This document shows, piece after piece, positions 8,293 through 62,882 of a DNA stretch of 64,000 nt. The position numbers were made by a program, and so were the translations under genes. Source of the stretch: Lophium mytilinum (lineage: Eukaryota > Ascomycota > Dothideomycetes > Mytilinidiales > Mytilinidiaceae); contig MU004190.1 in the NCBI GenBank assembly GCA_010093605.1, positions 744,001 through 808,000 on the forward strand, read 5' to 3'. The notes beneath the pieces were generated by a model. That model worked only from the letters and a program-made list of their open reading frames with translations. It ran no database searches and was not told the origin of the DNA. Within the stretch, counting starts at the first letter, position 1; every line of letters starts with the position of its first letter.

Positions 8293-10203
8293 TCACTCAG
8301 CCTTCCATCGATAAGAAGCCGCAACGTGCTCATCTAGGGGCCCAGACTGCCCAGGCTTTTCGTAGAAGTTCTCCCGGTAAGTACCTCCAGGCACTGCATA
8401 GTCGTCCCAAAAGAGACCACGAGATTGCAGTTCGGGGAGAAGAAGTTCCGCAATATCTTTGAATGACTGCGGGAATAGGGTGTACGCCTGGTAGTTGGAG
8501 TTGTCAGCGATGTACTATTTGCTTCTATGATAGCTCCTCTAAATGGACGCAAACGTACTAAGTTAAAGCCATCCACATCAGCTTCTTCAACCCAGGTCAG
8601 CAAGCCGTCCACCACCTGCGCTGGAGTTCCAACCAGCACAGGTCCATTGCCCCCGATACTAATATGCTCCGCAATCGTATGCTTCGTCCACTTCGACGTC
8701 CCGGGCGAGAACCGCGCGTACCCTTCCACAGTCGACCTATCACCATTAGCCCATCTTCACCACCCAGCCCACCCCCCCTTTCCAGTCACATACCTAACAG
8801 CATTACTCTCCACCTCCCTCAACTCCTCCTCATCCCCATACTTCCCCAAATCAATCCCCGTCCACCCACAAAACAGCGCCAGCGCCCCCTCACTCGACGC
8901 AAACCCCTTATACTCTTCAAACTTCCTCTGCGCCTCCTCCGCCGTGCGCCCCAGCACCGGCGTCACCAGCGCCAACACCTTAATATTCCCCGGCGTGCGC
9001 CCATACTGCGTCTTAGCTAGCTCGCGGATCTCGGCAATGTTCTTCGCGCACACGACGGGCGCGTGCGCGGATACGAAGATGGCTTCGGCGTGCTGCGCCG
9101 CGAATTGCTTGCCGGCTTTGCTGGTGCCGGCTTGTAGGAGGAGCGGCGTGCGTTGCGGGCTCGGCGCGCAGATGTGTGGGCCGGGCACGGTGAAGAAGCG
9201 GCCGGTGTGGTTGATTTCGCGGACGCGGGTGGGGTCGGTGTAGATGCCGGATTTGCGGTCGAGGATGACGGCGTCGTCGCGCCAGGAGGATTCGAGGAGC
9301 TTGTAGATTACTTGGACGTATTCTTCGGCTTGGGCGTAGCGGTCGTCGTGCTTGGAGGGGGTGAGTTATGTGATGAGGAAGTGGGAAGGGGAAGGGAGGG
9401 AGGATGGGATGTACCTACCTTCGGTTGCTCGGTGAAGCCGAGGTTGCGGGCGGCAGAGTCGAGGTAGCTGGTTACGATCTTGACGGGGTTATGGGTAAGC
9501 TTATTTGATGTTGGCTTTGGATCAAAAGCTTACATTCCAGCCGAGCCTAGAGGTGCATATGATTAGTCTATTGAAGCACACCACCAGCGTGGGAATCTGA
9601 ACTCGAGCCGGAAACATGCGATTGGAAGACCAACAAAGCTGAAAGAGGTTGAAGGACAATGATAAGATATGAACAGAAATTTCTTACCGTCCCTTAGTAA
9701 GGTGATCAACAGTGGACAGCCGCCTAGCGAGATGATACGGCTGCTCATACGTCGTCGAAACCGTCACGCCAAACCCAATACTCTTCGTCGCCGCAGCCAT
9801 TGCCGAGACCACTGCAAGTGGCTCATTAACTGGCCACTGGGCACCCGAGCGAATAGCCGCGTCAAGGGTTCCGTTGTAAACATCGTAGCCACCTATTATA
9901 TCCATCAGTACAGCTCCGAAGACCAGATATTACCGCTTTAGGAATAGAAGCCTTACCCAAAACGTCAGCGATGAAGATCCCATGGACCTTAGCAGCCTCG
10001 AGCAACTTCGCTAATTCAACCCAGTGCTCGACATCATTGAACTTGTGAGACTCGTCGTCAGGGTGCCTCCAGAGACCAGGGGACTGGTGCCCACTACCTG
10101 AGAGGATGTCAGTGAGGATGCTACCAGTTCGCTTAAGTCACGTGAGCTTACACATCTCCACGAATGCATTGATGATAAGCTTCTTCTGCTTCTGTTCCGT
10201 CAT
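8293..10203 (-). CDS. FMN-dependent monooxygenase, NtaA/SnaA/DszA family (copy A)
   Basis: Luciferase-fold flavin monooxygenase of 466 residues that would use reduced FMN supplied by a separate reductase to oxidise an organic N or S compound. Eight exons: 10152-10203, 9957-10097, 9688-9892, 9534-9546, 9419-9478, 8794-9350, 8559-8736 and 8293-8487; they total 467 codons. Family signatures in order: [30 protein letters not shown], the [19 protein letters not shown] block, [28 protein letters not shown] and DGFNLAY. The GRLGWN part falls in a 13-bp exon. The gene lies head-to-tail downstream of the UNC93 transporter and BVMO genes on the same strand and has a paralogue at 27.7 kb. NtaA, SnaA and DszA homologues act on nitrilotriacetate, pristinamycin and sulfones; the substrate here is unknown. 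Confidence 0.9.
10137..10144 (+). promoter_or_regulatory. GTCACGTG (Cbf1-type) site in intron 1 of copy A
   Basis: Matches RTCACRTG, the consensus of yeast Cbf1, inside the 54-bp first intron (10098-10151) and 60 bp inside the start codon. Function is inferred from the motif alone. Confidence 0.3.
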
Positions 10204-10765
10204 ATTTACTATGTGTGTGATCTAGAACGTTCAGAAAATGAGGAATATGCAGAGGTGATAACGAAACAGTAGTCAATTTCGAGAATATAGAGGTCACGTG
10301 GCTTAGCGTAGATGACGAAAGTCCGGGGTGAGAGAACGCAATATGGCTCTCCAAGAATAAATCCTTAGGCCCACCTATTCGGCTGTGCCCTGAAATTCAG
10401 AAAAGGAGAAAATACCCACGGTGCCCCGCTTGTGCTCTTTCTCCGGAACGACTCAACTAAGGAAGACCGAGGATCGTATCATGCCGTAATTGAGCTATGT
10501 ACAATTGATATTACCACTTTACACTCCCGAGAGTACTCCGGAAGGCATGAGGCAATGCTTAGTCGATGTAGAGCAAGGTCTGTATGCGGATCAAGGTTTC
10601 ACCTTCAATATATGATCTACATACAGATCTAGCTCTTGACCTAGCCTTGATACATGTACAACTGTGTCGGAGATGCAAGGTCTGAATCTGATACTAAATC
10701 GCCCAGCTCTAAACATCCATCTCTATCTTTGGTAGCCCATGTTTAACAACTGAAACCGCAGCTTA
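10204..10765. promoter_or_regulatory. Promoter region of FMN monooxygenase copy A
   Basis: This 562-bp stretch is the upstream region of copy A and the 3' flank of the UNC93-type gene. It contains GTCACGTG at 10293-10300, 90 bp upstream of the start codon. Nothing else was recognised. Confidence 0.45.
10293..10300 (+). promoter_or_regulatory. GTCACGTG (Cbf1-type) site upstream of copy A
   Basis: Matches RTCACRTG at -90 from the ATG at 10203. The same octamer recurs in introns of neighbouring cluster genes. Confidence 0.35.
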
Positions 10766-11421
10766 CTATTTATCGACCGGATCAGGAACATAAGTTACCG
10801 ATAGCTTCCTTTCTTGATTCGAAACACCAACGTCTCCCTTACCCGCACTGTTCGGTGTATCAAGGCCCCCTAATTCTGCCTCCTTGTGTAGCGAGTCGGC
10901 TCCGAAATGCCTCAAAACCAGCCATGCAGGCACGAGTGCAATAGCCCATAGCGCGAAGTTGAGATACACGCTACCTACTTGCGCGAATATCGTGATGGAG
11001 TTCAAGCCGTAACTGAGGGCTTGCCATGCAGACTCGGTGCCTCGAAGTAGAGCGGCGTAGCGGATGACCTCCGGCTCGTTTTTGGCAAGATTGGTGATCA
11101 TGAAGTACCTGAATGCCACGCTCAGATCACTTCGACCGGGAAACAGTAAGGGGGGGACTTACAAGAAGAGATAGTTGATCTGAAATCCGGTGTTCAGGAG
11201 GATAAAAACTCCAAATGCGTGACCGAAACCTGGGTCTGACCAGTCGTAGGTTGGCTTCGTGTGCCGGAACTTGGTTACGACGACGGTGGCCCAGATCCAC
11301 CATGCGCCTTGGAGGACTGCGATGACCGCGAACGAATAGCGAGCCTTGGACTTTAGGGTTGTACCCTTGGAGTCTAAGAAAGCCTGAAGGGTGGTCAGTG
11401 ATAGATTCAAGCTATCGTTAG

Positions 11422-11429
11422 GTCACGTG
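11422..11429 (+). promoter_or_regulatory. GTCACGTG (Cbf1-type) site in an UNC93 gene intron
   Basis: The octamer lies in the 58-bp intron 11384-11441. It is the third copy within 1.3 kb. Regulatory meaning is inference. Confidence 0.25.
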
Positions 11430-12106
11430 GCTTTGGCCTACCCCTAGAATATTGCCCGAAATGACGGCAACAATCCCGGACAAGAACGACCCGAGAGCGC
11501 GGGATCTAACGCTGAACCATACTGGGTTATGTCAGTCTTCGTGCTAGGCCCACTGCACTGGAATACACCACTCACGCGAAACTGCAACTGTGTTAGCTAT
11601 ATGCTCAAAATACTTGAGGAATACGGAGAGCTTCTTACGATAAGTGAAAAATACGGCCTCTGCGAAGACAGCTTGCCCAATCCAGAGCACAACTAGCAAG
11701 AAGTTCTTCGTGAAGAACAATCGCACTGTCTTCTTAATCCCGAGCAACGGGTTATCCACAATGTCCAAATGCACCTGCTTGCCATCCTTCCTTTGAACTT
11801 TGGATGGCCTATTCAGCAGTAGGGCAACGAACGGCCCAGTAGCTTGCAGAGCAATGAAGATAAGAAAAACCGTATACGAGACTTTGCCGGCTTGGTTATT
11901 CTTCGCGTTAATTCCCAGGTTGATGGCACCACCTAAGATCTGCCCAGATAGACGATAGGTCAACCAATAGCCGAGTGCTTTGCCCTAGAAAGAAGGTCAG
12001 TAGGCTTAGAGTTACGAGTTGATCCAGACAATTATAACCCACTTTATTCCAAGGTTCCGGATACGCGATAGCAATAGCAGCTTCGGCCATCCAAAACACT
12101 CCCGCA

Positions 12107-12311
12107 TGTGATATTTCCGATCACGTGATGTAAGAATTTGAAGGACAATAGATATTAATTCTATATAGAAATCTAGCTAGGCTATATATATATTGGGGAG
12201 GCCTATATAGGCCTTAATTATACTAGATCTATATAGAAAAGCGTTTCTATAGTAGATCTATATATTACGTGTATAATATCTAAATATTAACTATATATTA
12301 AGAATTCTATA
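12107..12311 (-). repeat. Left LTR (3' LTR of the minus-strand element)
   Basis: 205 bp that aligns end to end with 21632-21836. Both copies share the central stretch TTGGGGAGGCCTATATAGGC. The outermost ~45 bp next to host DNA keep ordinary base composition (including ATCACGTGAT near 12124), while the inner end is TA-rich. Confidence 0.92.
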
Positions 12312-15300
12312 TTCTCCCCTTCTAGATCTAATTTACTATTAAATTATGTTTATAATAGTATGTTGCGCTTACTACTTTATACTATGCGCTATTAGTATAT
12401 TAGGCTATTAGCTTCTTTAGAAGCTTTAAAGCTTCTAGGGGTATATAATACTATAAGAGGTGCGTTAGCAGGCGGTAATATTATAGTAATATGCCCGAGA
12501 GGGGTTTAGAATTCTTTAGAGGCCTACTGCTATATTAGTAGAGGGGATAATAAAGGTATTAGGATATTTAATAGCTTAATAGTAAGGAAGAATTAGAAGA
12601 GATTATAAAGTGTTTATAATAGAGGGAATTATAAGGTAATATAAATATTAGCATGCTAGCGCGCATTAGGTTCTAATGCGCAATTAGAGCTATAATAGCT
12701 AATAATAGGCTTATTAGAGATCTTATAAAGTCCCTTATAATCTAGTAAGAAGCTTATAATCTTATATAGGTTTAAGAAGCTGTTAGTGCATTATAGAGCA
12801 GTAAGTAGTAATCTAGAAGTAATAGATTTAAGAATCTAGAGTATATATAAGGCCTTCTTAACACTCTTACACTCTTTCTTCTATACTTAACTTTCTTCTT
12901 TAAGGTTTAAGCTTCTCTTAGCTTTAAAGGTTTATTAAAGACTCTTATAGCTTCTCTTCTTATTACTATTATCTTTTCTTTATTAATTCTTTTATTAGGA
13001 CTCTCTCTCTCTTAGCTTCTAGGCTACTTCTTCTTACTCTAAGTTAGCGTTATAATATTACTTAATATCTAGCTAGGTTCTACAGCCTCTAGCTTGCTCT
13101 ATAGAAGAGGTAGAGATAATAGAGGTAATAATTCTTTAGACCCTAGCTATAGTTGTAAGATTCTACGCTCTTATAAATTCTTAGGTATCTTAGCTTATAA
13201 AGCCTTATAGGCCTATAATAAGTTTCTAATAATAGTTTAGCTCTTTCTCTTAATAAAGCTAATAAGATCTAGTTACTATTATACTTATATTAATTATTAA
13301 CCTTCTAATAGTCTAGAGGTTCTATAATCTATGCTATGCATAGCTAATAGCCTTTAATAACTCTATTCTACTTTCTTAAGCCTTCTAATGCTACGCTGTA
13401 GCTTCTAATTATCTAAACTATACTAAATACCCCCTAAAGTTTAAAGGTAGTAGTAGAGCTTAGAGGAATATACTACTTTAAGAGTTCCTTAGCAATATTA
13501 GAGATAATAAACTAATTTTAAATAAGAACTATAGCTATAATTTACGCTTTATAGGGCTTCTTAAATAGTATTTAGGCTTAAGAGTAGATTATAGTAAGAA
13601 TTCTAGGGCTTCTCCTGCCTTTAGAGCCTGCAACTACTGCTTAAAAATATTCTTAGAAGGCTGTTAGTTTAGCGAATATATTTAGGCTTATAATCTAGAT
13701 AGTTCTCCTCTCTACTAAGGATTCTGTATAGAATGTTATTAGTAGAGTAGTAAGGGGACTTATTTATTCTAAGGTAAGTTTAGCTTTACTTTTAGAGTAT
13801 CTTAGAACTTAGCTAATACCTATTATAGAAGGATAGACTCTAATAGCTTATTAGAAGACTACTAGGGCTTACATTTAATAAGGTTACTATAATATTACTA
13901 AGTTTATATCTTCTCTTTGCGACTAAGAATCTCTTAAGAACCTAGCTAAGAATATAGTGCGCTTAGCCTTAGCTATATAGCTGCTAATAGAATTAATTTA
14001 AAGGAAGACTACTATACTACTATATAATCTAGATATTTCTTATACTTCTAAATCTCTAATAGCTTAATATTACCTATAGGGCTCTAGTAGTACTTCTACT
14101 TAGGCTTCTAGTTTAAGATCTAGCTTCTAGTAATTATCCGCAGCTGCATTAGGTTTAGAAAATACGGCTGCTTTAGGTTCTAGCACTTAAGGTTTAAGGT
14201 AATACTCCCTAACCTCTTCTACTTAGCCTTTAACTTCTCTAACTTCTTTAACCTCTTATTATTCTTCTTTAAGTTCTCTATAGCGCTTCTAAGAGCCTAC
14301 TCCTAATATACTATTAAGCCGCCGCTTATTCTAGTTATCTATTAGTAATAATAATAACTCTACTAGAGAGACCCCTCTAAACTCTACTTAGTGTTAGATA
14401 GGCTCTTTAAATACTATTCTCTAGAAGAACAGGGCTAGCAAGCATAGCTAAAATATATTAACTTAGAGCGCGCCTCTAAAACAGCCTTAGAAGGATAATA
14501 ATAGCTATTCTAGTAGTAGTAGTAGCTATAGAAGTTCTAGTAGAAGGAGTCCTAGTAGTAAAATAGCTACCTAGAAGAACTAAGAGTATATTAGCTTAGC
14601 TAGTATTAATAGAAAAGCGTTAATTTTCCCTTCCCTTCTAGATGTAAGAAGGGTTAAGTGCAATAAAAGTATAAGCTTAGCTTAGTTAATCTCTAATATA
14701 GGTTCTTAAATTTATTATCTTTTTAATTCTCTAAAGATAAAATATGGCTAAATAAGTAATAATAAAGAATTAAACGCTTGAATCTAAATTAATAAAGGAA
14801 ATCTAGGTAATAAATATATAGAGTTCTTCTAACACTCTATTAGCTTAGAATAGAAGCGCTATTTAAGCTCTCTTGCGCTTTCTTCCGCGTAACTCTATAT
14901 TAAGAGCTTAGGTAGGTTGTATTATAGGTGCATTAAAATTGCTATCTAAATCTAACTTATAATTACTGCTAGCATTCTTATTATCTTTAATATCTATTAT
15001 GCTAGCATTACTGCTGGAGGAGCTCTCTAATTAAATATTAGAGTTAGTATTCTTATCTAAGGACTTATTATTTATGCGCATTTTAGTATCCTTAGCTCTT
15101 AAGTTAATCCCTTTATCCTGTAGCTCTATAGTATTATTAGTTTAAATAATAGCATTACCCCTCGGCTATATAATAATAGTATCCCTATTATACTTATTAT
15201 TATCTTAGTGCGCAGCATTAGATAATTAGATAGCAGCATTTACACTCTTAGGTGTTCTATTACTATCTTAAGCTATTTCTAATAGTTTCCTATTATTAGC

Positions 15301-18300
15301 ATCTATGGCTAGCACTAATGCATTATTAGGTTATTCTATAGGTGCTGCGTAATTACTAGTTCCCTGCAGAATATTAAGCTTATCTTAACTTATCTCCGGC
15401 TTATATATATAAACTTCCTAATAGATATTTATAGTAGTCTTGCCTACATCTTTATATTATATAACTATAAAGCTAGTAACCTATACTAGTATAATAGTTA
15501 ATTAACCCTTCTTAGGTTTCTTTTTCTTAGTAGCCTATTAGTCTCTCTTAAGAACTCTCTCTTTAAAATCTCTTAGTATTTAATATAGCTTTAGTTTAGG
15601 CAGTTTCTAAGCATTCTTCTCCCCTTTCTAGAAGAGCTCCGCGCCCTTATACTGCTATTTTAATTAATACTTAGTAATCTTCTAATTCTATTCTACTTTA
15701 GAAATTATAGTAAACTTAGACTATAGCTTTCTATTAGCGTTGTCTGCATCTAATACATCCGCGATAGCGTTATTACTAGGTTTAACTTCTTCTTAATATG
15801 TAGCACGCTCTTTATTAGTATTATTAAAATCCTCTTAGTTCTAAAGTGCTTAGTTATCTTCTAATACATTATTAGAATATTCTAAGCTATATTTAGGGTC
15901 TTCTTAGTTCTAAAACTTTATATAAGCATTAATGCGTGCATTTACTAACCTATCGCCGTAAATAAGGTTCTTTAATACTTAATTAGTAGGCGTTTAAAGT
16001 ATATAGGTACTAAGAGGATAAGTAGTAATAATCTTAAATAGACTAAACTATTTTGCTCTAAATTTCCTCTTAACCTTATTTTAAAGGAGTACCTAGAAAC
16101 TAATCTTTTATTAAGTAACTAGGTGCTTCTTAGATAGAGGTTATAGATCCTATAGGCCTGCTATAATTACTTTCTTTAGTAGCTAATCTTCTACTAGTGC
16201 GCGCGCGTGTTAAACTTTCCTAATGCGGGCTAAATAATACTCTAATTTAGCTTCTTTATCTGCAGTCTTATTAAGAGCCAGTACTAAAGTATTATTAGGT
16301 ACTTAAGGACATCTACTATATATAAGGTAGTAGGGAGTATAGCTATAGAAGGTATTCTAAGTATATATTATATATACTATAGCCGGCAACTAGGTATTCT
16401 ATATAGCTATATCTTAATTAATTATTAGCTTTATAAGGATATTCCCTAAGACTCTATTAAGCCTCTCTACCTTACTGTTTATCTAAGGGTAATACGGCGT
16501 TATAATATTATAGTAAGTCTTAATAAGCTTTTATAGTGCTGTAATAACTTTAGAAAGAAAGTTTAAACTATTATTAGAAGTAAACGCTGCTAGGGGTCTA
16601 TACTAGTAGTAGATTCTTTTATAGATAAATATTACTATAGTCTTAGCTTAAGTATTAGAAAGCGCTGCAGCTTTAGGCCAACCTATAGTGTAATTAATGG
16701 CAGTAATAATCTAGTAATTTCCGTGGATTAATTATAGTAATCTACTAATTAAATTAATGCCCTATTTATTAAATAGATCTTAATCTTTAACCTAATAAAA
16801 TATTAGTTTATAAATAATCTTTCCCTTCTACACTAGCTAGCATAAGGTATACTTGTAAGCGTATTTATTAGTATTATAACTTATTATTGGCCACTAGCTG
16901 TATACTTGCAGGGCCTCCTGCATGCCGCAGTATATAAAGTGGCCTAGCCGGTGGGTTCTATTAAGAACCTATTAATAATAGAAAGGTGTAATATATAGTA
17001 TAGTATTCTTAAGGGTATATAAATCTAGATTACTATTAGGTTTATAGAAGTAATAGCGTAGTTCTTCTTTTAGAATTATAAAGTTCTAATATAGGGACGG
17101 ATGGATTCTTTAGTAGTAAAGCTGGTATTATTTTAATTTAGCCTTTAATAGCTGTTTAGAGAGAGTAGGCTTAAGGCCTATTATAAGAAACTTCTTTAAA
17201 TCTTTAATATACTCTATATTAGGATCTTTATTCTTAGAGAGGGCTATAAGGTGTTCTTAGGCGAAATTAGGGCGCCTACTAATTATGTCCGGCACTATTA
17301 TAAGGGCTTCTAAGTAATACTATATTATAGGGTTATACTACTAGAAATTCTTAATCTATTAAGTAAGCCTCGGTGAGGCTTTCTTAGTGGTTTATAGGTA
17401 TTGTAATAAGTAGTAATTAGTTATAATTATTAATTCTTTCTCTTAAATGTAGTATTGCTAAATTCTAAGCGCTTCTTTAATCGCTAGAAGTTCTTTTTTA
17501 TAAACTAGATAGTTTAATTTGGCTTTATTAAGCTTCTAACTGTTAAACGCAATAGGGTGCTACTTGCTATCTTCTCCTTGTTAGAGAAGGACTATTCTAA
17601 TAGCAAAATTAGAAGCGTCTATTTTAATCTAAAAGGGCTTTAACTAGTTAATAAGGGCGAGCACAGGGCGTTTAATAAGCTTTCGCTTAAGGAAGTTAAA
17701 AGTAATTTAACAGCTAACGTTCTATATAATAGCTTAGTACTTTTTCTTTTATATTGCGGCGTTGCTTTTCTTTAGAAGCTTATAGAGAGGTGCTAATATA
17801 TAGGCAAAGTTCTTAATAAACTTTTAATAGTATATTGCTAGTCTAATAAACTATTAGACCTTATAGATATTAGTAGGAATAGGCTAATACTAAATAGCGT
17901 CTAGTTTATTAGTTATTAGTTTTACGGTTCTGTAAGAAACTATATAGCTATAGAACTTAATAGTTTCTTAAGCAATTAAGTACTTATTAGTTTTAGTAAA
18001 TAGTTGTTCCTTTCTAAGAGCTTTAAATAATAATTAGAGGTAGTTAAAATACTCTTCTAATATTTCTAAAAACACTATAATATCGTCTATATAGATAAGC
18101 ATAAATTAATATAGGTATAGTTATAAGGTGTTATTTATAATAGCTTAAAAGGTGGCAGGAGCGTTGCAGAGACTAAAGGGTATAACTAGGAATTTAAATT
18201 TCCCTTTAATTGTGTTAAAAGCAGTCTTATAGATGTCTAATTAATAAATGCGCAGCTAGTAATATCTAGAGGTTAAATTAATCTTAGTAAAGAACCTAGC

Positions 18301-21300
18301 CTTCCTGAATAACTATAGGCAGTTATTAATGCGTAGTAGAGGGTAGGTATTCTTCTAGGTTACTAGATTAAGTGCTCTATAGTTAATATATATTTACTAC
18401 TTACTATTTAGCTTTAGAATAAAAAGAACTAGAGATCTCTAGGCACTAATAGACTCTTAGATAAGGCCCTATTCTAGCAGCTTATAGATCTATTAGGTCT
18501 ATTCTTCTATTTAATAATATAAGAGGTAGTATGCAGTATTATTTACTGGCTTTATATCTCTAGTATTAATTAGATAGTTATATCTGCGCTTAGGCGGTAG
18601 AATGTTAGAGAGGATGTTATAGAAATAAGGTTTATACTCTTTAAGAAGCTCTTAGAACTTCTCTTATATAGGAGTAGTAATATAATTAATTAGGGGTAAT
18701 AAATTCTTATCTTTTAATAGCGGATTGGTGCCAGGTTATAGTATCTAATCCGGCGTTAGTTTATTAGAAGCTTTTACAATATAAAGGTAAGTGGAATTAA
18801 GCTTATCTACTAAGAGCCTCTTATACTCCTAATAGGATATTATATTAATAAAACCCTAGTGTTTTAGTTTAGAGAGACTAAGGTCTATAATAGGGCTTAA
18901 TATATTAAGCTAATAAGCTACCGGTTTAATCTTTAGGTTGCGGCTAACCTGCGTTTGCAAGGTAATGGAATTAGTAAAGAAGTTAATAATAGCTTAGTAT
19001 TACTGCAGCCAGGTTATACTAAGGATGTATTAATACCCTTTAAGGTCTAGAATATGTGCAGTTAGAGTACCTAATAGCGTATAGATCTTAAATAGAATCT
19101 CTAAGGCTTTTATACTAATTATAGTTGCATCTAAGAGGAGTTTAACTATCTTAGGGGCTATTATTTTAATATTCTTTAGCTAATATTAAGTATGCTTTAA
19201 TAATATGTAGACGGAATTAGCGCTATAGTTAATTAAGAAGGTAGTCCTTTTCTAATAGTTAGACGGTCCTAAAGTTCCCTTATATTCTAAAAGATATTTA
19301 CCTAGGGAGTTAAGGTAGTAGATTCTTTCTTCTATTAATTTAATAACGATTTAGTTAGAAGGATTATTAAAGGGCGGCTAATCCTTTTCTATTATAAGTT
19401 TATAAAAAGTAGAAGTCTTGTCTTTTAGGTTAGTTAGTTGCTCTAAGGCTACTAACCCTTCTAGTTTTCTAACGGCTTCTTAGCTAGCTAAGTATAGTTG
19501 CGTTTAATATAGCCCTTCTTACTATAATTATAGTACTTACGTGTGTTAGTATTCTATTAAGTAGTACCTTTACTGCGTCCGCTACAGCCTTAACCGCGTT
19601 CTTAAGATCTAGTAGTATTTCTACCTTTAAAGGCGTTAAGTTTAGCGTTATCTTTAGTGTCTAGATATTTATATTTATTAGGATTAATATTAGTTTCTTA
19701 GAAGTAATTATTATCTAATTCTTTATTAGCCCTAGAGATAGCATTAAGGCGGCCCTAATAGTCTCTTGTTCTCTTATACTAGGAGATTTAATACTTATTA
19801 GTAGTAGCGACCTACGCCATCTATTTATTAAAATTAGGAGGGGCCTACGCTTAGGCGTTAATATGAAACTTAAGGCTAGGTTTTAAACCTGCGCGGGCAC
19901 GTTAATATACTTTAAGATTAGATAGAGCTATATTAAGAGGGTATATATAAGTAGCCCTAATAAGCTTATTAAAGAACTAATAAGTACTAGTTATCTATAC
20001 TATTTTATTAAAGCGGTATTAGCGTTGCTCTAGTATATCCGCGCTCTTATAGTGGCGGCTAAAGGTAGTAAAGAACTAATCTAATGTAGTAAACTTAGTA
20101 TTACCTTAGTAGTACTGTTAAATATTTTAGTTTTATTAAACGGCCATAGTTCTAGCTGTATAGCTGCCGGCCAGCTAAATCTTTTAAGTTTCCGGCATCT
20201 ACTAGTAAACCTATTAATAGGCGTCTGCTTATATAGTAATAAAGTTACGCATCTAAACTATCTAGATAGGGTACGCATTATTATTAACTTTACCTAACTA
20301 TATAGCGGGAGTCCTTATAAGGACTTTAGGTAGCGCTATTAAATAAGGTTCTCTTATAGCTAATATTCTCTTAAAGGCTTATTAAAGCTCTTATATAGTT
20401 TATTCTAATACAGGCTTATTATAGTCTAGCATTAGATAATCTAAGGGAGCGTTAGATAATAGACTCTAGAAGTTAGTAGCACTCTAAGAAGTAGGCTACT
20501 ACTAGGGGTTATCTAATATATTCTTAATACGGGTATAGTAATTAGGGACTATAGCTTATAGCTGCCCTAGTATAGTAGCCTGCTACTATTATATAGAAGG
20601 AGCTAATATAGAACTAAAGAGTTCTAGTTTCTAGTAATCTATTATATACTCTATTATAGGGGCTTAGAAGTATTAATAGCTATCTAAAGAAGGCGTAAAT
20701 AATAGCCCTTAATAGGTAAGCCCTAGATTATAGGCTAGGGCACTACTGTAAATAATTAGAGGACCTTAAACTAGTAGCTTAACGGGTTCTAGAGTAGCGG
20801 CCTGCTTAGCCTATAAGGCTAATATTAGGTTAGATAGATTATAAAATATAGTGCTAAACTAAGAGAGCCTTTAGAAGAGTCCTTAAAGGTTAGAAGGTAA
20901 TCTATTAGAATAATAATATCTATTACTAGATATAAAAGGAAGCTAAGGGTTATAGGACATCTAAGGATAAGAAAGAGTAGAAAAGAGTTAACGACTGCAA
21001 TATAATTAAAGTAAAGAGTAAGAAAAGGGTGCTAAGATAGTAATGTTAAGTTTTTTTCTTAAATGCTTTTTAATATCCTGTTAGAGAGGGAGGATTCTTA
21101 GAAGGACTTCTCTGCCTTCTTCTTATAATTAACTTATAAGGATTTCTAATTGCTATATAATTATTAGGCTCCATTAAGCTATAATATTATTCTTCTCGCC
21201 GTCCTGCTATTAATCTTGCTTCGGTAGCTAATAGGACGCGTAGTTAGTTGCGTAGAAGTGTTAAAAGGGATAGGAAAATCCCGCAGTAATATTCTAGCTA

Positions 21301-21631
21301 AGGGCTCTTTAGACCTATACTGTTTAATTTTTATAAGGATATTTATAATAGGCGGTTATACTATAACGCCGGCCTAATACTAATTAGGGGCTATTATTAA
21401 TAGTTGTTATTAATCGCTAATTAGGTTAATTTTTAGAAACCGTTAATACGGCTTAGTATTATTATAATAATCTAAAAATTCTACTAATTATAGGAGCTAA
21501 TGTCTTCTATTATTACTAAGGGTTAATTATAAGAATATAGCCTTAGCTAGCTCTATACTATTAAGTTTAAGGATCTAATAGCCCTCTAAGGAGGCCTTAG
21601 AGGCGGCTAGAACTGCAACTAAGCTACTAGA

Positions 21632-21836
21632 TATAATATTTCTAATTATATAATATAAGAATTTAGAGAATAATAGATATTAATTCTATATAGGAATCTA
21701 GCTAGGCTATATATATATTGGGGAGGCCTATATAGGCCTTAATTACACTAGATCTATATAGAAAAGCGTTCCTATAGTAGATCTATATATTACGTGCACG
21801 ACATCTAAATATCAACCGTATATTAAGAATTCCACA
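21632..21836 (-). repeat. Right LTR (5' LTR of the minus-strand element)
   Basis: 205 bp, the same length as the left copy. Here the host-facing end (about 21795-21836, ending TTCCACA) keeps ordinary composition and the element-facing end is TA-rich, the mirror of the left LTR. Confidence 0.92.
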
Positions 21837-22297
21837 TGCAGAGATACCACAAAGAGCAGCTCTAAAAAGAACGAACCATTCAGTCCTAAAGCGGTTATTA
21901 GTATAGAGGCCAGCAGCGTAGGGTGCGTATCCCAGCGTTCCAAATAGCAGCGCTCCCTTAATGCCAATGTATCTTACGAGCACACTCGAAAAGAGGCAAC
22001 CCAAGATCATCAAACAAAACGTGAGTGCGTTAGCGGAATTGATTAGATGCGGCGATGCAGCGCCACCCGCTCCAAGCGAGTTCATGGCACCCCATATTCC
22101 GGGTGCGGCGAAGTTGCAGAGGCCGAGAATGGTGATGTTGTAGAAGGTCGAGCGGTACCATTTTGCTTCAATCGGGTTAGCTTAGTCGCAATGACGGAAG
22201 TCGCTTCGGGGAACTTACTAGGGTGCGATCTATCCTCAAGCTGGGCATCGTCTCGAACGTGAGAGTCGGACTCTCGAGACTCTAAGGGAGTTCCCAT

Positions 22298-22954
22298 TTT
22301 GACATAGATAGAGCTGATGGCTCAATTAAAAAAATGGACCAACGCTGTTAGCCTCTTCCGAAACTAAACTGGTAACCAAAGGCAACAAACAGCTCAGTAG
22401 ATCTTTGGGTAGAACTTGAAGCTCGAGATACCCTGCACTTCAATTGAACTCTATGGTGCTGCTGTTGAATATATACACAGCAGATGTCATACACGCCACA
22501 GACGTTTAGCGAAGTCTCTGTCACACGAAGAATGTGCCAGGGACTGCACAGCAATCGCAGGGGTGTGAGCACGCAAGTATCGCGACATATCGAGCAAGCC
22601 CACAAGCCATGCGACCGTGTTCCGGCAGCTAAGCACGGAATATTCTCCCATCTGCTACCCTTGTACGAGCAAATGCCGAGATATGCCCATTCGCCGTAGT
22701 AGTTGTTTCAGCGTGAATAAACTGCAGTTGAGGTCTAGACCATCACGCCAGGAATATGTTTGACATTCAGCGCTTAAAAGCTCCCTCTTGTCTAAATAGG
22801 CGCAATCATGAGCCAGAAAAACCGAAAGAGTATTAGAGTTTCGAATGCAATATCAAAAATGCACATGTGAAAGTAATCTCGAAGCACTCATAAACATCGA
22901 GTCTCCCAATCTTGCAGCACAATCCGTGAGCCTGGTAGCCGGGTTCAGAGTGCA
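22298..22954. promoter_or_regulatory. Upstream region of the UNC93-type gene
   Basis: This 657-bp stretch lies between the start of the UNC93-type gene and the stop of the BVMO gene; both are on the minus strand. It should contain the transporter promoter and the BVMO 3' UTR. No specific site was identified. Confidence 0.5.
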
Positions 22955-24848
22955 TCAAGGCAGGTCCCACCAGCTTTCATGGAGATCCTTCACATTGATC
23001 TCTGATGGCAGCTTCAAATATGTCGTCAAATCGGCGCCCGGTTCAGTCTCACGCTTTGTATAGCCATTGCCAAAATACGCGAACCTGTTCCCGCTGTCGG
23101 TAACATACTCGTACTCCCAATCTTCCCATCTTGGATCACGACGAACGATGGTGATGTGTGCTGCACTGCCGGGCCATAGTCCGTGGATCCGGGCCCCTGG
23201 TCTACCACCGTTGTTCCAGGAGCTGCAATTGTCCGTAAGGACTGTTTTGGGAAAGAAAGCATCCGAATATTCGATGAAGTCATCCGCAGCTTTCTTGCTA
23301 GGAACGATGGTCTTGATGCCTTGCGATGAGACCTTTCGGAGGAGCTTAGCATGATAAGCGAGCTGAGTCTCCACGCTATGTGGCACTGTGCCGGAAGGCC
23401 CAGTGGCATGTGCGCCTGCGAGGATCAGAAGGTTTGGAAACCCTGGCGTGGCAAGTCCGAGATAGGTGTAGGGAAACCCAAACACGCCTCCGGGCCTCCA
23501 TGCATCCTTCAGGTCAATTCCGCGCGATTTCACAGAGAAGGGTGGTGCGAGATCAATGTTTGCGCCAGTCGCGCAGAAAATTGCGTCGTATTCGCGTTGA
23601 CTTCCGTCAACGGTCTCGATTCCGGTTTCAGTAAATCGCTTGATCTTGGTTTGGATGAATTCGACATTGTCCTGTATGATGGCTTCCAGGTATCCAGGCC
23701 CAGGGGTAAGACGTCGGCAATGGGGCGCGAAGTCCGGAATGAGACTAGATAATAGACTAGGATCCTTTTCGGTACGCTTCTTCATGATCTCGATGAATTG
23801 CTCTCTCATGCCTGCATTCTCTTCCGAGCCTCTTAGCATCGCCTTGAATCGCCTCCAGTACTTGACTTCGAGCTCTTTTCGGAATTTGAGATACGTCTCC
23901 GGGTCTTTGAATGATTCACGTTGCTCCTCCGGATATGGTTGTGGGCCGTCCACTCTCTCGTCTCCGGCCCATGAAGTTGCAATCCACGTAGGGTTTCGAG
24001 CGTAGTGGCCTACATGCTTCGCCGTCTTCTGCAAAGCCGGTGTCACCTGAATGCCGCTAGCTCCATTTCCAATAACGGCGACGGTCTTTCCCGCAGGCTC
24101 AAACGTGGTATCCCAATTCGAGGTGTGTCGCAGGAGACCCTTGAAGTCGTTGATTCCCGGATAGTCTGGGAGCTTCCAACGATTGAATCGTCCAATGGCC
24201 AAGATAACAAAATCGAACTTCTCGATGGAAGTCTTGTCAGTCTGCAGGTCACGCACCTTGACCACCCAGCTAGACTCCTTCTCTTCCCATTCTGCATCTT
24301 CGACATAACTTCCAAGCTTGATGTAGCGATAAACATCATGTTTGCGAGCTTGGGCTTGCCAGTAGTCGCGGATTTCCGGGCCTTGCGCGAACTGCTCCGA
24401 CCACTGCGTGTTTGGCGAGAATGTGCTCTGGTAAACGTGGGCTGGAATATCGCAGCGAACTCCAGGATAAACGTTTTCAAGCCACGTGCCACTCTATATG
24501 TTCAAGACAAGATAGTTAGAGACAGTCTTGAGGGCGATAAGCAAGGCTGAATCGTACCACATCCTGATTCTTCTCGAAGATACTCAGGTCAATGCTGGGA
24601 ACCTTTGCTGGCAATAGAATACCGGCTGTAACCCCAGATAAACCTGCTCCAATTACCGCTACTCTCAGCTTCCGTACATCGTCGATGCAGTGGTCCTCAA
24701 GCTTCAAATTGGACTTTGGATAATTCAGCGGCCCGTCTTGGGTTTTTGGCGGGGATGGAAGAATGGTCCAGTTGTCAAGTTTCTCTTCCACGGCTTTGAG
24801 ATGTGGCTCTTGCGTCGCCCGGATCGGGTCTTCAAGAGAAGGTGGCAT
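22955..24848 (-). CDS. Baeyer-Villiger monooxygenase (class B flavoprotein)
   Basis: FAD/NADPH enzyme of 609 residues that would insert oxygen beside a ketone or aldehyde carbonyl (or oxidise a heteroatom). Two exons, 24558-24848 and 22955-24493, with one 64-bp intron; they total 610 codons. Residues 67-72 (GAGLSG) form the FAD Rossmann motif. The exon junction gives SGTWLENVYPGVRCD, the usual BVMO core. Residues 214-225 (FKGLLRHTSNWD) match the type I BVMO fingerprint FxGxxxHxxxW(P/D), and GNGASG at 239-244 is the NADPH-binding Rossmann motif. Length and the N-terminal extension suit fungal cyclododecanone/phenylacetone-type BVMOs. It starts the minus-strand arm of the cluster and faces the MFS gene across a shared upstream region. 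Confidence 0.93.
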
Positions 24849-25673
24849 CTTCCACTCTTGATTTAGCGAAGCCTATAGTATGAGCTGTACAAATCTAGTT
24901 CCTCTGATTATCGAATCCGCAAGTTCAGAGCGCAAAACCTTTCTCATTCACCACCCAGAATAGCGGCTTGCAAGGTAGTTCAGGAAGTGTCTTACACGAT
25001 GAGAACAAGTTGAGTGTTTTGGCTTTTAGCATTGCCCTTACGTTGGGGTTGATCCTTGGCACCACCGGACGATGGCGAGCACGCCTTTGCCCCACTCGAT
25101 CACCAAAACCACCACTGGTCCACAGCTTATCAGCGACAGACCGGAGACGCCCTAAAATCTACGTGCCGTTGATCGGCCCGCGCGATACGTTCCTAAGGCG
25201 TTCCGTTGGCTCGTCGTGCCGTGCATGGAACTTGACTCTGTCGTATCCTCTCGCATTGCCAATCTGGGCAACCCCACCGACGAGTGATCCTATCCCAGGC
25301 TATTGCTACCAATTGCGTGATACGCGCTCTAACGATCACGTACGACTTGGGGCGTGGAGGCGTTAGTAACGAGTGTCCAAGTCCAGGCTACGATGTCTCC
25401 CACGCGTTTCGTCTATCCACCACCACATCGCGGAGCCTTTTCTTGATGGTAGCATGTCGGTCTTATTTTTTTTTACCTATGCTCGCAGGTCCGCGCCAGG
25501 CTCCGAAGAAAACCCATTTGTGTGGTAGTAAAGGCAGCTTGCGCCATGTCGTGCCATATTGACGATTTGAAGACTCTTCGTCGTATTCTGCACCAGCAAG
25601 GATAAAAGATGTAGTTCTGGAGCTCCCCTCTGCATCAAGTGCATTTCCTTCTTTCATTTCGATTCTTCTCAAT
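24849..25673. promoter_or_regulatory. Bidirectional promoter region at the cluster centre
   Basis: This 825-bp gap lies between divergent BVMO (minus) and MFS transporter (plus) start codons. It is the hinge of the two cluster arms and the natural place for a shared regulator to bind. CCGTTGATCGG near 25163 has the CCG/CGG arms of a zinc-cluster factor site, but such short matches are common. No coding region is seen. Confidence 0.5.
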
Positions 25674-27244
25674 ATGGCAATCCCCAAGAGATCGTCCAGA
25701 TGGTACCGCATCAAGTGGTTCACTCACGAAGATACTGCCGAAGAGCGTAAGCTCATATTGAAGCTGGATTTGCTTATTGTGCCTTATGCTTTTCTTTCAT
25801 ACTGGGTCAAATACATCGACCAAGCAAACATAAGTACGTCGAAACTCCTGGATCACGTGTGTAGTCGAGCGCTAATGATGGGAAAGACAATGCCTACGTC
25901 GGAGGTCTCAAGGAAGACTTGGGCTTTCAAGGCAATCAGCTCGTACATCTTCAAACGCTGTACACCCTCGGTGCAGTCCTTGGGCAGCTGCCATTCTTGT
26001 TCTTGTTCCCAAAGATTCCGATGTATCTGTTGATACCATCTCTGGATGTTATCTGGGGTGTATTCACACTGCTTCAGTACCGAGCTAATTCCTATGCGGA
26101 ACTCGCGGCATATCGCTTTCTAGTCGGATGGTTTGAGGCTGCCTTTTTCCCGGCGATGCATTTCATCTTTGGCTCCTGGTACCGCGGTGACGAAATTGCG
26201 AGACGTGGCGGCGTCTTCTACGTAGGACTCACCCTAGGGACCATGACTGCAGGCTTTATCCAAGCCGGCGCATCAGCGAAGCTGAACGGACTCCATGGAC
26301 TCGCCGGCTGGAGATGGATGTACATCATCTGCGCCATTATCACTATCCCTATCGGCTTGCTCGGACTAGTGGTACTTCCAGGAACACCGGACAAGCCCAA
26401 TCGACTGATCCTGACGCATAACGACATTGAGCTTGCATCTGCTCGGTTGGAAAGGGCCGGCCATGTGCTTACCGGAAAAGTCACGTGGGTTACCGTGGTG
26501 AAGTTGGCGAGGAGTCCGCGAATTTGGGCGCTTCTGCTTCTGGATGTCTTCTTCTGGAACGGCAGCATCAACACCTCGACAGGCGGATATCTGCTCTGGC
26601 TTAAGAGCTTGAAACGATACTCGAAGAGCCGACTGAACGAGCTTGGTACAGCGTCTCCGGGTCTTGGTATCTTCTATACGCTTCTCGTCTGCTTTTCCTC
26701 GGATCTGCTTCTTGGGCCTGCTTGGGCGATTACACTGGCGCACACTTGGAACATTATCGGACTGGTGATTCTGACAATATGGGACGTTCCGGAGACGGCG
26801 AAATGGTTTGCATTCATGACGACGTACTCCGCGGTCGCCATGTCGAGCGTTTTGTACGGATGGATCAACAGTCAGCTGAAGTATTCTCCCGCGGAGCGTT
26901 CTTTTACGCTTCTCCTGTCGAATGCTCTGGCACAGTCAACCACTGCTTGGACTCCGCTTCTGACTTTCAAGACGGTGGAAGCTCCGCGGTTTAAGAAGGG
27001 ATATCCTTTCGTACTGGCGAATGCGGTGTGTCTGATTGTGCTTGCACACCTGATCTCGTGGTACATTGAGCGGAAAGAGTGAGTTTTCGAAATCTTCCGA
27101 ACACTTAAGCAGTTGCTAATGTCGGTGATTAGCAACCCAAAAATTGGAACTATTGATGATAGCGAAAGGGTCGTAGAGGCGCCAGGAGAGACGCCCGTGA
27201 AAGGCCGCTCACCGGAGACGCGGTCGGTTGAAAGTAAGCTTTAG
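25674..27244 (+). CDS. MFS transporter, anion:cation symporter family (Liz1/Seo1/Dal5-like)
   Basis: Plasma-membrane proton-coupled importer of 487 residues. Exons are 25674-25833, 25887-27078 and 27133-27244, 488 codons in total. The N-terminus (EERKLILKLDLLIVPYAFLSYWVKYIDQANINNAYVGGLK, spliced at QANIN) is the hallmark of the ACS family, which includes fungal pantothenate (Liz1/Fen2), allantoate (Dal5) and Seo1-type carriers. FLVGWFEAAFFPAMHF and GWRWMYIICAIITIPIG are further family blocks. About 12 hydrophobic segments are seen and the C-terminal tail is hydrophilic. It is divergent from BVMO and 438 bp upstream of FMN monooxygenase copy B, so it probably imports the cluster substrate, likely a small organic anion. 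The exact substrate is unknown. Confidence 0.9.
25852..25859 (+). promoter_or_regulatory. ATCACGTG (Cbf1-type) site in intron 1 of the MFS gene
   Basis: The octamer lies within intron 25834-25886. It is the fourth RTCACGTG match in non-coding parts of the cluster, besides one in the MFS coding sequence at 26480-26487. Confidence 0.25.
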
Positions 27245-27681
27245 GCGACTCTAGTAAGCCAGCAATAGAATAGAAGTATTAGAAAGCGCGCTTGACGGTT
27301 AAGCGGCACTGAGTATCAAATATCATGAGACTCGACTTTAAGCTTCTGGGGTAGCCTGTGCGCCTGACCCGTGAGAAGTTCTGGCAAAACCTCGCTCAGA
27401 AAGCGGCCCTTGAGACTATGTCAAAGTGCTGAAATTTCTAGCGAATGAATTTCAAGGTGTCGTGGAAAGGCGTTGTCCTACTCCACCATTGGCAGATGGC
27501 GCAATCACCAAGGAGCATTGCGAGGGATCGTGCCCCACCTACTTTACTAGCGCCGTGACCAGGGTGAAGAGAGCCGTTATCGAAGTCCCAGAAAGCCGAC
27601 GAATGTATAAATGACTTGTCTTACTTCGAAAGCTAAAAGCAAAATCAAAATACCACAATTTGACCTACCTGCTTCTTCATT
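27245..27681. promoter_or_regulatory. Intergenic/promoter of FMN monooxygenase copy B
   Basis: This 437-bp stretch lies between tandem plus-strand genes. An AT-rich stretch with TATAAATGAC near 27605 lies about 75 bp upstream of the start codon and could serve as a TATA element. Nothing else was recognised. Confidence 0.4.
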
Positions 27682-29325
27682 ATGTCAGACACTCCAGCCC
27701 TTGCCCAAAATGGCAATGTTACCGAGCCGAAGAAACACATCATTCTCAATGCGTTTGACATGTCTACGATCGGGCATTTGTCTCCCGGTCAATGGAAGGT
27801 AGATTTTGAACCTGGCACTTTCGGGTCCATGTTGCTGATGTTGCGTGCCTCTAGAACCCAGAGGACAGATCTGCTACTAAGCGGACTCTCAAGTATTGGA
27901 TAGACCTAGCAAAACTTCTAGAGCGTGGTGGAATCAATGCGTTGTTCCTAGCCGACACTTATGGTGGATACGATACCTATGAAGGCAGTTTAGATAACTG
28001 CATTCGACGAGCTGCACAATGGCCCGTCACTGATCCGACCATCGTAAGAGAGACGAAACGTACAGAAGGATAACGAGCCCTGGTAGCTGACAATTGATAT
28101 ATGTAGCCAATTTCAGCGATGGCAGCAGTGACGAAGAATCTCTCGTTCGCAATCACCGCTTCGACGTCGTTCGAGCCGCCGTTCCTGCTAGCGAAACGAT
28201 TTTCAACTCTCGATCACCTGACCGGGGGTAGGATAGGGTGGAATGTAGTTACAAGCTGGAAGAAGGCTGCATTCAAAGCCATCGGACTAGACACTCCTAT
28301 CGAGCATGATGAGCGGTATCAGCAAGCCGATGAGTATCTACGAGTTCTGTACAAGTAAGTCTCTAGACAGTGCCCAGCTCAACTTACCCGCTGATCCTGA
28401 ACGCCTCAGGCTTTGGGAAGGCTCATGGGCCGACGACGCCGTTTCCCCCGATCCTGCGAAGGACGAGTACGCGGACCCAAACAAGATCCGCACGATCCAC
28501 CACCATGGTAAGTACGTCAATCTAGACACCAAACACATCGTGGACCCTTCTCCGCAACGCACACCCTTCATCTTTCAAGCCGGCACCTCTCCAGCCGGCT
28601 CTCAGTTCGCTGCCACCCATGCCGAAGGCATCTTCGTCTCCTCCCATTCCACCAAAGTCCTCCGGCCCAAGATCGACGCCATCAGAAAGCTTGCTGCGGA
28701 GAATGGCCGTGACCCGCGCTCGATTAAGTTCTTCGCGACCTTTACGCCCATCGTAGCCGCGACAGACGAAGAGGCGAGAGCCAAGCACGAAGAATTGAAG
28801 AAGTACGCATCTACAGAAGGTGGGCTGGTGCTCGTGAGCGGCTGGACGGGCATCGATCTCTCCAAGTACCCGCTAGACCAAGAACTTACGGCCGCGGACT
28901 CTACGGAAGCACACAAAGTGCGGAGTCTGCTTGATTCGTTCACGACCACGAGTAAGGATATCCCAAAGTGGACGCCACGTGTGATCGCGGACAAGGCGTC
29001 AATTGGCGGTCTCGGGCCTGTGGCGATTGGGAGTCCGGCAACGGTGGCAGATGAATTGGAGAGGTGGGTTCGTGAGGCGGATATTGATGGGTTCAACTTG
29101 GGCTATGTGACGACGCCCGGGACGTTTGAGGATGTAGTCGATCTGCTCATTCCTGAATTGAGGAGGCGAGGGCTGTACCCAGAAGCAATTGAAGACGGCT
29201 TGACCGCCAGGGAGAGGGTGTACGGAAAGGGCCAGAATGGGGTGAGAAAGGACCACATTGGCAGTCGGTACAAGTACGATGTGTACACGGAAGACAAGCC
29301 TTATGAGGCGAATGGTACTAAATAG
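27682..29325 (+). CDS. FMN-dependent monooxygenase, NtaA/SnaA/DszA family (copy B)
   Basis: Second luciferase-fold flavin monooxygenase of the cluster, 489 residues. Exons are 27682-27798, 27855-28043, 28107-28354 and 28410-29325 (490 codons). Family blocks: NAFDMSTIGHLSPGQW, ADTYGGYDTYEGSLD, AAQWPVTDP, STLDHLTGGRIGWNVVTSW, HDERYQQADEYLRVLYK, LWEGSWADDAV, FIFQAGTSPAGSQFAA, GWTGIDLSKYP and DGFNLGYVTTPGTF. It shares the family blocks with copy A, but the region after GWN differs (KKAAFKAIG here, [10 protein letters not shown] in copy A) and intron positions differ, so this is not a recent duplicate. It is likely expressed with the MFS gene upstream and the SDR downstream and is expected to need reduced FMN from a reductase encoded elsewhere. 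Confidence 0.92.
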
Positions 29326-30039
29326 GCTGGGGTGGAGAAAGCTGACGGAGGGATCGCGGTAGTAATTGAGCAGGCCATTCCCATGAGATGCTGAAGGTCC
29401 ACGTCTTCTGATATTCCTAGCATATGCGAATTGTTGTCGGACTGTAAACCCTAAACAATATAGGATACGATAACACGTTCTAGACACTTAGATATAGACC
29501 CATCTGTAGCCTATAGAAGATGAATCCACTGCCCTCCTCGGAGAGATTATGGGTTTCCGTCTTTCAACAGTTGGAGAATGAATGATCGACTGCGAATTAG
29601 AAATAGGAATTGTCTCCCAGATGTAGGAACGGCGGCAAACGATGGTGAGCGACTTTCGGTTCTACCGGATATGCCTCAAAGCCATATCAATGATGCATCA
29701 GCCCTAGACTGCGAAGTAGCCGATGAAGAAGATGCTCAGAGAGAAATCTCAGAAAGAGAAACCTGGCGCCCCGGATACTGGGAAGGAATTAGCGCAAAAC
29801 CCTAGATCCACCGTAGCCTAGTGGCTTAGTGGGGACATCAGGCAAGTTGAGGCGAGCTGACCCTTTGCTTACTCCAAGTTTCCGACAAGACAATACAAAG
29901 GTAGCTGCTTTTCAATGTATACAGGCTTCAGGCAGAGACTATCAGCATCGTGCCGAGATATCAGTGGCGTCCTCAGCTGAAGTCAAAATCTCTTTGTAAC
30001 TTTTCCAGTCTGACAACAACTGCACCACCTTCCAACAAA
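29326..30039. other. Intergenic between copy B and SDR
   Basis: 714 bp. One 75-codon open frame (29578-29805) of no recognisable family is present; it has no clear promoter and its composition does not favour coding. The last 80 bp before 30040 are pyrimidine-rich and probably form the SDR leader. Confidence 0.5.
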
Positions 30040-31084
30040 ATGGGCGGCATCCTTGGCTTCCTCTACCGCCAATTGACCTTCAAACCCAAACCCCTTCCAT
30101 CTACCATCTCCCTAGCAGGTAGCACAGCGCTCATCACCGGTGCCAACATCGGCTTGGGCTTCGAAGCCGCCCGCGAACTCGCATGCCACAAACTATCCCG
30201 TCTCATCCTTGCCGTGAGGGACACCTCAAAGGGTGAAACCGCAAAGACTACCATCTCAAAGGAGAGCCCCGGCTGCGATGTCCATGTATGGCAACTGGAT
30301 TACGATTCCTACGACAGCATAGTCGCTTTTGGTGCCAAAGTCGCGACTCTCGATCGGCTTGATTACGTCCTTCTCAATGCGGGCTTGAAGCAGGTGACGT
30401 ACACGGCATCACATACGGGCCATGAAACGAATGTGCAAATCAATCATATCGGGACGTCACTTCTTTCCTTGCTCATCCTGCCGACTCTACAGAAGACGGC
30501 GAAAGAGACGGGAAAGCCGTCGCGGATGACGATAGTGTCTTCAGAAGGACATTTCTGGACCCCCTTCAAGGAGCGAAGCGCTCCTAACATCCTTGCGCGA
30601 TTGGACGAGGAAGAGACGTTTGGTCGTGTGATGCAGCGGTACTACACGTCGAAGTTGCTTAACGTATTTTGGACGAGGGAGCTCGCGAGTAGGATTGACA
30701 AGAGCGAAGTCGTTATCAATACGCCCAATCCGGGATGGTGTTATAGCGGGTTGCACAGATATCAAATGACCAGTCTGTATGACCTTGTACTGAGGATGCT
30801 TTCATGGACAAGCGCGGAGGGAGGTCACTGCTTAGTGGATGCATTGGTGCTTCATGAAGAGTCTCATGGTCAATATCTAAGCGAACAGAAGGAGACCCCG
30901 TAAGTCATTGCAGTTGCTGTGACGGGTTGCATCTCGCTGACTATTCCAACACTATGGACCTTCAAGTTTTGTTGTTTCCACGGAAGGCGAAAAGGTCCAA
31001 AAGCAAATCTGGAGCGAGACTTTAGATTTGCTCAAAAGGGAGGTGCCTGGGGCAACCATTCCGGGTCTTGCGGTTGCCACTTGA
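30040..31084 (+). CDS. Short-chain dehydrogenase/reductase (retinol-dehydrogenase-like)
   Basis: NAD(P)-dependent oxidoreductase of 325 residues. Exons are 30040-30899 and 30967-31084 (326 codons). The start was chosen at the ATG of MGGILGFLYRQ, since the upstream frame is a leader. TGANIGLG at 33-40 is the cofactor-binding TGxxxGxG, NAG at 113-115 the structural motif, SS at 167-168 the catalytic serine region, and YYTSK at 201-205 the YxxxK pair. The N-terminal hydrophobic segment (GILGFLYRQLTF) suggests membrane association, as in the WW-oxidoreductase-like fungal SDRs. After splicing the tail reads PFVVSTEGEKVQKQIWSETL, typical of this SDR group. It ends the plus-strand arm of the cluster and could interconvert alcohol and carbonyl intermediates. 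Confidence 0.92.
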
Positions 31085-53600: not shown

Positions 53601-53609
53601 GCCTTAACT

Positions 53610-62760: not shown

Positions 62761-62882
62761 CGCGCTGCGCAGGCTCTACTTGCCCTAAGTTGCTACGGGG
62801 CCGCTGGGCCCTTATGTATATACTTAGGTGGAACCTACTCCTTAGGGCCTTGGAACCCCGGGGCAGCGGCGCAAGGGCAGGA

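Follow-up and report, generated by a model that had tools for sequence, protein, structure and literature searches.

A 64,000-nucleotide window of the Lophium mytilinum genome (C10:744001-808000 of a 43.18 Mb genome in 24 contigs) holds six gene models that fill positions 8293-31084 and probably form a catabolic cluster degrading a small organic compound. We propose that its core consists of a Baeyer-Villiger monooxygenase (BVMO), an FMNH2-dependent monooxygenase of the NtaA/DmoA family (NtaA-B) and an anion-type importer of the major facilitator superfamily (MFS), and that these may cleave the C-S bond of some small organosulfur compound, a reading to which we assign a probability of roughly 0.4; substrate, step order and joint regulation are inferred. 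Given that BVMO and NtaA-B each have their closest paralog at a second locus, on contig C2, where the two are again paired, the pairing is unlikely to be due to chance, and we consider it likely that BVMO and NtaA-B, possibly with the MFS transporter, function as one unit. A second NtaA-type gene (NtaA-A), an UNC93-type transporter gene and a short-chain dehydrogenase/reductase (SDR) gene belong to the cluster by adjacency only, and it is somewhat doubtful that all six genes act in one pathway. The genes are arranged as follows, five of them (all except the UNC93-type gene) encoding full spliced proteins with no internal stops.

10203-8293, minus strand: NtaA-A, NtaA/DmoA (luciferase-like) FMNH2-dependent monooxygenase, 8 exons, 466 aa
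22297 to about 10766, minus strand: UNC93-type transporter, whole span, interrupted
24848-22955, minus strand: BVMO, predicted Type I Baeyer-Villiger monooxygenase, 2 exons, 609 aa
24849-25673: divergent intergenic (promoter) region between the head-to-head BVMO and MFS genes, 825 bp
25674-27244, plus strand: MFS transporter, anion:cation symporter type, 3 exons, 487 aa
27682-29325, plus strand: NtaA-B, NtaA/DmoA FMNH2-dependent monooxygenase, 4 exons, 489 aa
30040-31084, plus strand: SDR, short-chain dehydrogenase/reductase, 2 exons, 325 aa

The BVMO and NtaA-B pair and its counterpart on contig C2

The second oxygenase locus (C2:2.224-2.240 Mb, L026 2426 to L027 8334) encodes RutA-like and PhzF-like proteins, a BVMO, an NtaA protein, an MFS transporter, a transcription-factor-like protein and an SDR. 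In its core, at about 2.228-2.235 Mb, the BVMO gene (2.228-2.230 Mb) stands head-to-head with the NtaA gene, with a gap of ~562 bp between candidate start codons (L026 8141 to 8704), and the MFS gene follows. The two BVMOs are 52% identical over 578 residues and are mutual best paralogs, with 614 vs 399 bits from the window and 653 vs 374 from C2, where bits of exons were summed per locus by hand and the next locus in both directions was C10:82.7-84.5 kb. Likewise, the closest paralog of NtaA-B is the NtaA protein of the C2 locus (58% identical, all others at most 49%), which is also its sister in the tree (100/98). The MFS gene lies between BVMO and NtaA-B in the window but after NtaA at C2, and its product there is 31% identical to the window transporter and not its nearest paralog, closer ones occurring outside the C2 locus (34-44% identity). 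The C2 locus further differs in its extra RutA-like, PhzF-like and transcription-factor-like genes (the last at 20.6 bits, just below the cut-off of 21), in the absence of any UNC93-type gene and in its SDR, which resembles that of the window only distantly (31-37% local identity). The RutA-like gene, whose product resembles pyrimidine monooxygenases (408 bits on a partial model, cut-off 498), is a surprising find in a fungus.

For seven NtaA-clade genes and ~38 BVMO-like loci, 0.06-0.18 NtaA genes would be expected to have a BVMO within 5-10 kb, while two were observed, NtaA-B and its C2 paralog (P 0.0016-0.012, assuming random placement, uncorrected and post hoc in that the pair had already been seen, with NtaA-A left out). 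The BVMO-like loci number at least 38, with exon hits merged by hand and 72 of 81 candidates scored. It seems that the BVMO/NtaA-B neighbourhood was either kept, or assembled, twice. Enzymes and transporters are thus co-localised beyond chance, as for a fungal catabolic cluster. Manual merging of 16 exon-level matches puts genes with the PF00296 domain at about 11 sites in the genome, and only the window and C2:2.224-2.232 Mb have two of them close together; at seven other PF00296 loci, including four from the NtaA clade, no BVMO or MFS gene matching those of the window was detected (tblastn, E 1e-4). Among 80 loci of bacterial NtaA relatives, with up to 7 kb on each side, none carried both a BVMO-like and an MFS gene: a weak BVMO-like hit was present in 4 of the 80 (22-30% identity), a weak MFS hit in one and an SDR hit at 1e-5 in none. 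In two scans of viral_contigs, no relative was confirmed.

The comparison of gene order inside the genome backs the BVMO/NtaA-B pair and not the other four genes. Which genes belong to the cluster is a question that overlaps with that of the substrate. BVMO, MFS and NtaA-B could by themselves be the unit, with NtaA-A, the UNC93-type gene and SDR as unrelated neighbours in a decaying cluster, and we regard this as having close to an even chance. BVMO and NtaA-B are the only neighbours whose closest paralogs recur together, the nearest paralogs of SDR (40-44% identical) lie elsewhere in the genome, and the UNC93-type gene is disrupted. In line with this smaller unit, no 8-mer was common to at least four of six promoter regions, five from the window and one from C2 (control mean 0.4), and a single 9-mer was common to three, where 40 random draws gave 1.6 on average; nothing exceeded the control. 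On the other hand, chance would rarely place a pair of NtaA-clade genes within 20 kb (0.02 pairs expected for seven genes), and the cluster is tightly packed, with MED7 and a PAP2-family gene past its right end. Its left side is flanked by a glycosyltransferase-like gene and by a 542-codon frame that matches no Pfam family.

Two head-to-head arms separated by ~0.8 kb had been described for this region in a preliminary description, and the models agree. The gene families and the catabolic type of the cluster named there are likewise supported. The arms had also been called mirrored; however, an inverted duplication is rejected, given that NtaA-A and NtaA-B are only 47% identical, that the closest paralogs of both lie elsewhere and that each groups with another locus. 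The transporters of the two arms come from different families, and there is no relationship between BVMO and SDR. In the accessible portion of the open-licence PMC literature, in which limonene and terpene BVMO clusters were also considered, no fungal pathway with this six-gene set turned up, in agreement with the earlier remark that no such described pathway was known.

Enzyme families and candidate substrates

Both NtaA proteins of the window, as well as the C2 paralog, exceed the TIGR03860 cut-off of 279.7 (514.2 bits for NtaA-A, 475.8 for NtaA-B and 433.4 for the C2 protein), so that by profile NtaA-A and NtaA-B are full members of this NtaA/DmoA family. The closest paralog of NtaA-A is encoded at C2:2.702 Mb (75% identical, sister in the tree at 100/100). 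This sister gene (C2:2.6996-2.7027 Mb, L034 7560 to L035 742) stands in tandem with an MFS gene of the lactate/monocarboxylate type, near a P450 gene and an SSF symporter-like gene. In the tree, built from eight own sequences and the 80 closest bacterial relatives with no other fungus, the fungal NtaA genes formed one clade of seven (100/98). Two separate acquisitions of NtaA genes from bacteria are not favoured by the same tree, in which a long-branch artefact may account for the joining of the C1 sequence to the NtaA-A pair, and the letter make-up of NtaA-B is unusual.

The best solved match of both proteins, over nearly their full length, is dimethyl-sulfide monooxygenase DmoA (6ak1, presumably the Hyphomicrobium enzyme), with E values of 9.2e-138 for NtaA-A and 9e-136 for NtaA-B, followed in order by LadA (3b9n), hexachlorobenzene oxidative dehalogenase, riboflavin lyase, DszA and MoxC, with nitrilotriacetate and EDTA monooxygenases more distant. 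A Cys near the N-terminus is important in LadA and DmoA; in our alignment it is kept in NtaA-A, while NtaA-B has Thr.

The window BVMO carries both of what we take to be the BVMO fingerprints, FxGxxxHxxxW[P/D] and GxWxxxx[FY]P[GM]xxxD (as FKGLLRHTSNWD and GTWLENVYPGVRCD), and two Rossmann-type GxGxx[GA] motifs, GAGLSG and GNGASG, which identifies it as a predicted Type I enzyme; in the C2 BVMO, Tyr replaces the first Phe of the fingerprint. The best solved match of the window BVMO is phenylacetone monooxygenase; the enzyme would be predicted to insert oxygen next to a carbonyl and may also oxidize sulfur. The MFS transporter matches MFS_1 above cut-off (80.2 bits). Its best NCBIfam match, TIGR00893, at 116.9 bits falls under the cut-off of 395, as does that of the C2 transporter, which also has TIGR00893 as its best, so that the window protein is assignable only to this broad type; the Liz1/Seo1 label is that of the preliminary description. 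On contig C16 (477.4-481.8 kb), an MFS gene whose product is 44% identical to the window transporter (residues 60-201) lies ~1.4 kb from an FMO-like hit, a proximity that may be due to chance, both families being common. The SDR matches the adh_short family.

Sulfur, carbon and nitrogen compounds are all chemically possible substrates. Our preference for sulfur rests on DmoA being the nearest enzyme that has been characterised and on the induction of such enzymes and transporters by sulfur limitation in Candida parapsilosis. According to the available text of that study, sulfur limitation raised the expression of PF00296 FMNH2 monooxygenases, four of them dependent on Met4, the major regulator, and of Dal5-family transporters including SOA1 and two SEO1 homologs (PMC11502921). 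This likeness concerns co-induction of similar kinds of proteins, the Soa1/Seo1-type transporters and PF00296 enzymes, and in the available text it is described as co-regulation, not as a physical cluster (PMC11502921). In the parts available to us, a 2018 review proposes that PF00296 enzymes take part in fungal use of sulfones and sulfonates, and states that fungal FMNH2-dependent monooxygenases were then uncharacterised genetically or biochemically (PMC5857272). All five genes annotated as 'alkane sulfonate monooxygenase' in Raffaelea lauricola were up in planta together with other sulfur genes, as far as the accessible text of that paper goes (PMC7441637). The comparison with our cluster holds if, as we assume, these Raffaelea lauricola genes belong to PF00296.

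Under the organosulfur reading, the MFS transporter would import a small organosulfur anion or thioether, which BVMO could oxygenate, either from sulfide to sulfoxide or sulfone or at a carbonyl next to it. With FMNH2 supplied by a reductase whose gene lies elsewhere, NtaA-B would then cut the C-S bond to yield an aldehyde and sulfinate or sulfite; NtaA-A might act on a second alkyl group or on a related substrate, and SDR might convert the carbonyl product. The order of FMN monooxygenase, SDR and BVMO put forward in the preliminary description is likewise conjectural. The logic resembles 4S-type desulfurisation (DszC, DszA, DszB), in which a flavin oxygenase is followed by a C-S cleaving monooxygenase of the DszA family, to which our proteins match (DszA, 5tlc). 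The likeness is an analogy only: no desulfinase was seen, and the window BVMO presumably lies outside the family of DszC. That these genes represent an undescribed fungal desulfurisation, with S-oxygenation by BVMO and C-S cleavage by a DmoA-like enzyme, encoded by a diverged pair present twice in the genome with its own transporter each time, strikes us as improbable, at slightly less than one chance in four. The recurring BVMO partner offers a concrete pathway hypothesis that can be tested, and it could help to group fungal FMNH2-monooxygenase paralogs by likely function.

Several results weigh against sulfur. LadA is nearly as close a match as DmoA (412 vs 457 bits for NtaA-B and 434 vs 463 for NtaA-A). 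NtaA/DmoA-type enzymes need FMNH2, and the genome's four flavin reductase (PF01613) hits all lie outside contig C10, on C8, C2, C9 and C24, although such a reductase could act in trans. The MFS gene adjoining the sister of NtaA-A hints at carbon use. Sulfur genes, such as those for a sulfatase or TauD, were absent from the open reading frames (ORFs) searched at the cluster and the C2 locus, a partial set from which frames antisense to gene models were mostly left out. In addition, 'Baeyer' does not occur in the available text of the two sulfur papers (PMC5857272; PMC11502921).

Promoter motifs do not back the choice of organosulfur compounds either. ATGRYRYCAT, which we take to be the motif of MetR/Cys3-type regulators, is absent from the 13.1 kb of the cluster; its absence there says little, given that a further 200.7 kb of the genome lacks it too. 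About 214 kb counted, comprising the window cluster and other loci, hold no match to this motif. CACGTGA occurs six times in the 13.1 kb of the cluster, where 3.4-3.8 would be expected from densities elsewhere (0.26-0.29/kb) in a plain comparison. The whole window has 17 matches, compared with 3.2 in shuffled sequence (palindromes counted on both strands). Since its density is similar in 170 kb of other loci (0.29/kb) and in the window outside the cluster (0.26/kb), we do not consider the motif cluster-specific.

On contig C8 (393-399.4 kb, L037 1-6428), an NtaA-type gene is followed by genes for an alpha/beta hydrolase and a flavin reductase within 6 kb, the latter ~5 kb from the NtaA gene. 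This is plausibly a complete two-component monooxygenase locus and possibly a source of FMNH2 for the other NtaA enzymes.

A carbon substrate would entail subterminal oxidation, in which LadA-like hydroxylation is followed by conversion to a ketone by SDR and to an ester or lactone by BVMO, with a hydrolase encoded elsewhere opening the product. A computational study of Aspergillus flavus homologs of LadA, in its available text, places BVMO after LadA in a proposed route of subterminal oxidation, and that text mentions neither 'gene cluster' nor 'transporter' (PMC9468676). Our cluster encodes both a BVMO and an SDR, LadA ranks second among the solved matches of NtaA-A and NtaA-B alike, and NtaA-A retains the Cys common to LadA and DmoA. 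However, it is NtaA-B, with Thr at this position, that recurs with BVMO, and the MFS transporter is nearest, though under cut-off, to an organic-anion family. The route is further weakened by the lack of any esterase or lactonase among the searched ORFs of both clusters; in the window cluster, no other hydrolase was found among them either. We therefore hold carbon use to be unlikely, at about one chance in four.

Cleavage of a C-N bond, in an aminopolycarboxylate or a heterocycle, would by analogy follow NtaA, EDTA monooxygenase, riboflavin lyase and RutA, all enzymes of the same family or superfamily, and appears less probable than any of the other readings. Riboflavin lyase is fairly close to the window proteins (260 and 263 bits), and the C2 locus holds the RutA-like enzyme, on a partial model and under cut-off, together with the PhzF-like protein. 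By contrast, EDTA and nitrilotriacetate monooxygenases are far (137-189 bits vs 457-463 for DmoA), and the ORFs of the window cluster that were searched included no amidase or amine oxidase. Four leftover ORFs within the cluster (108-162 aa) had no Pfam matches, and no pathway-specific regulator was found among these and the window gene models.

The interrupted UNC93-type gene

The six-gene set is not intact: the UNC93-type coding sequence is split by a long terminal repeat (LTR) element of 9,726 bases, and the left arm is therefore broken. The parts are arranged as follows.

10766..12104, minus strand: UNC93-type gene, downstream part, aligning to paralog residues 145-469, with four predicted introns and no stop
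12109..21834: LTR element, AT-rich and mutated by repeat-induced point mutation (RIP), 9,726 bases, inside the UNC93-type coding sequence
21839..22297, minus strand: UNC93-type gene, upstream part, aligning up to paralog residue 144

Compared with an intact paralog of the same genome, the upstream side stops at residue 144 and the downstream side begins at residue 145, with no stops on either side. The element is bounded by a 4-base target duplication (12105-12108 and 21835-21838) and ends in direct repeats of ~0.2 kb, whose 207 aligned bases show 88% identity and 25 differences, every one a transition. Its GC content is 30.6%, its RIP composite index is 1.35, vs -0.21 and -0.52 for the flanking cluster, and its longest open frame has 70 codons. 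Because the element lies between them, NtaA-A is 12.8 kb from BVMO. The gene is thus an example of a RIP-mutated retroelement disrupting a transporter gene in such a cluster, and the mention of relatives with an 'intact UNC93 gene' in the preliminary description fits this break.

The N-terminal piece in the window reaches 16.7 bits for PF05978, under the cut-off of 22.9, and the two downstream pieces have no PF05978 match. The UNC-93 label rests for this reason on the intact paralog on contig C15, which scores 60.7 bits and is 48% identical to the window piece over 73 aa.

A second AT-rich island occupies window positions 53500-62800 (30.4% GC, RIP composite 1.77) and shows no blastn similarity to the element in the UNC93-type gene at E 1e-5. 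Finally, on the minus strand at window positions 47291-51485, two adjacent frames with PAS_2, PHY, HisKA and HATPase domains encode a phytochrome-like histidine kinase.

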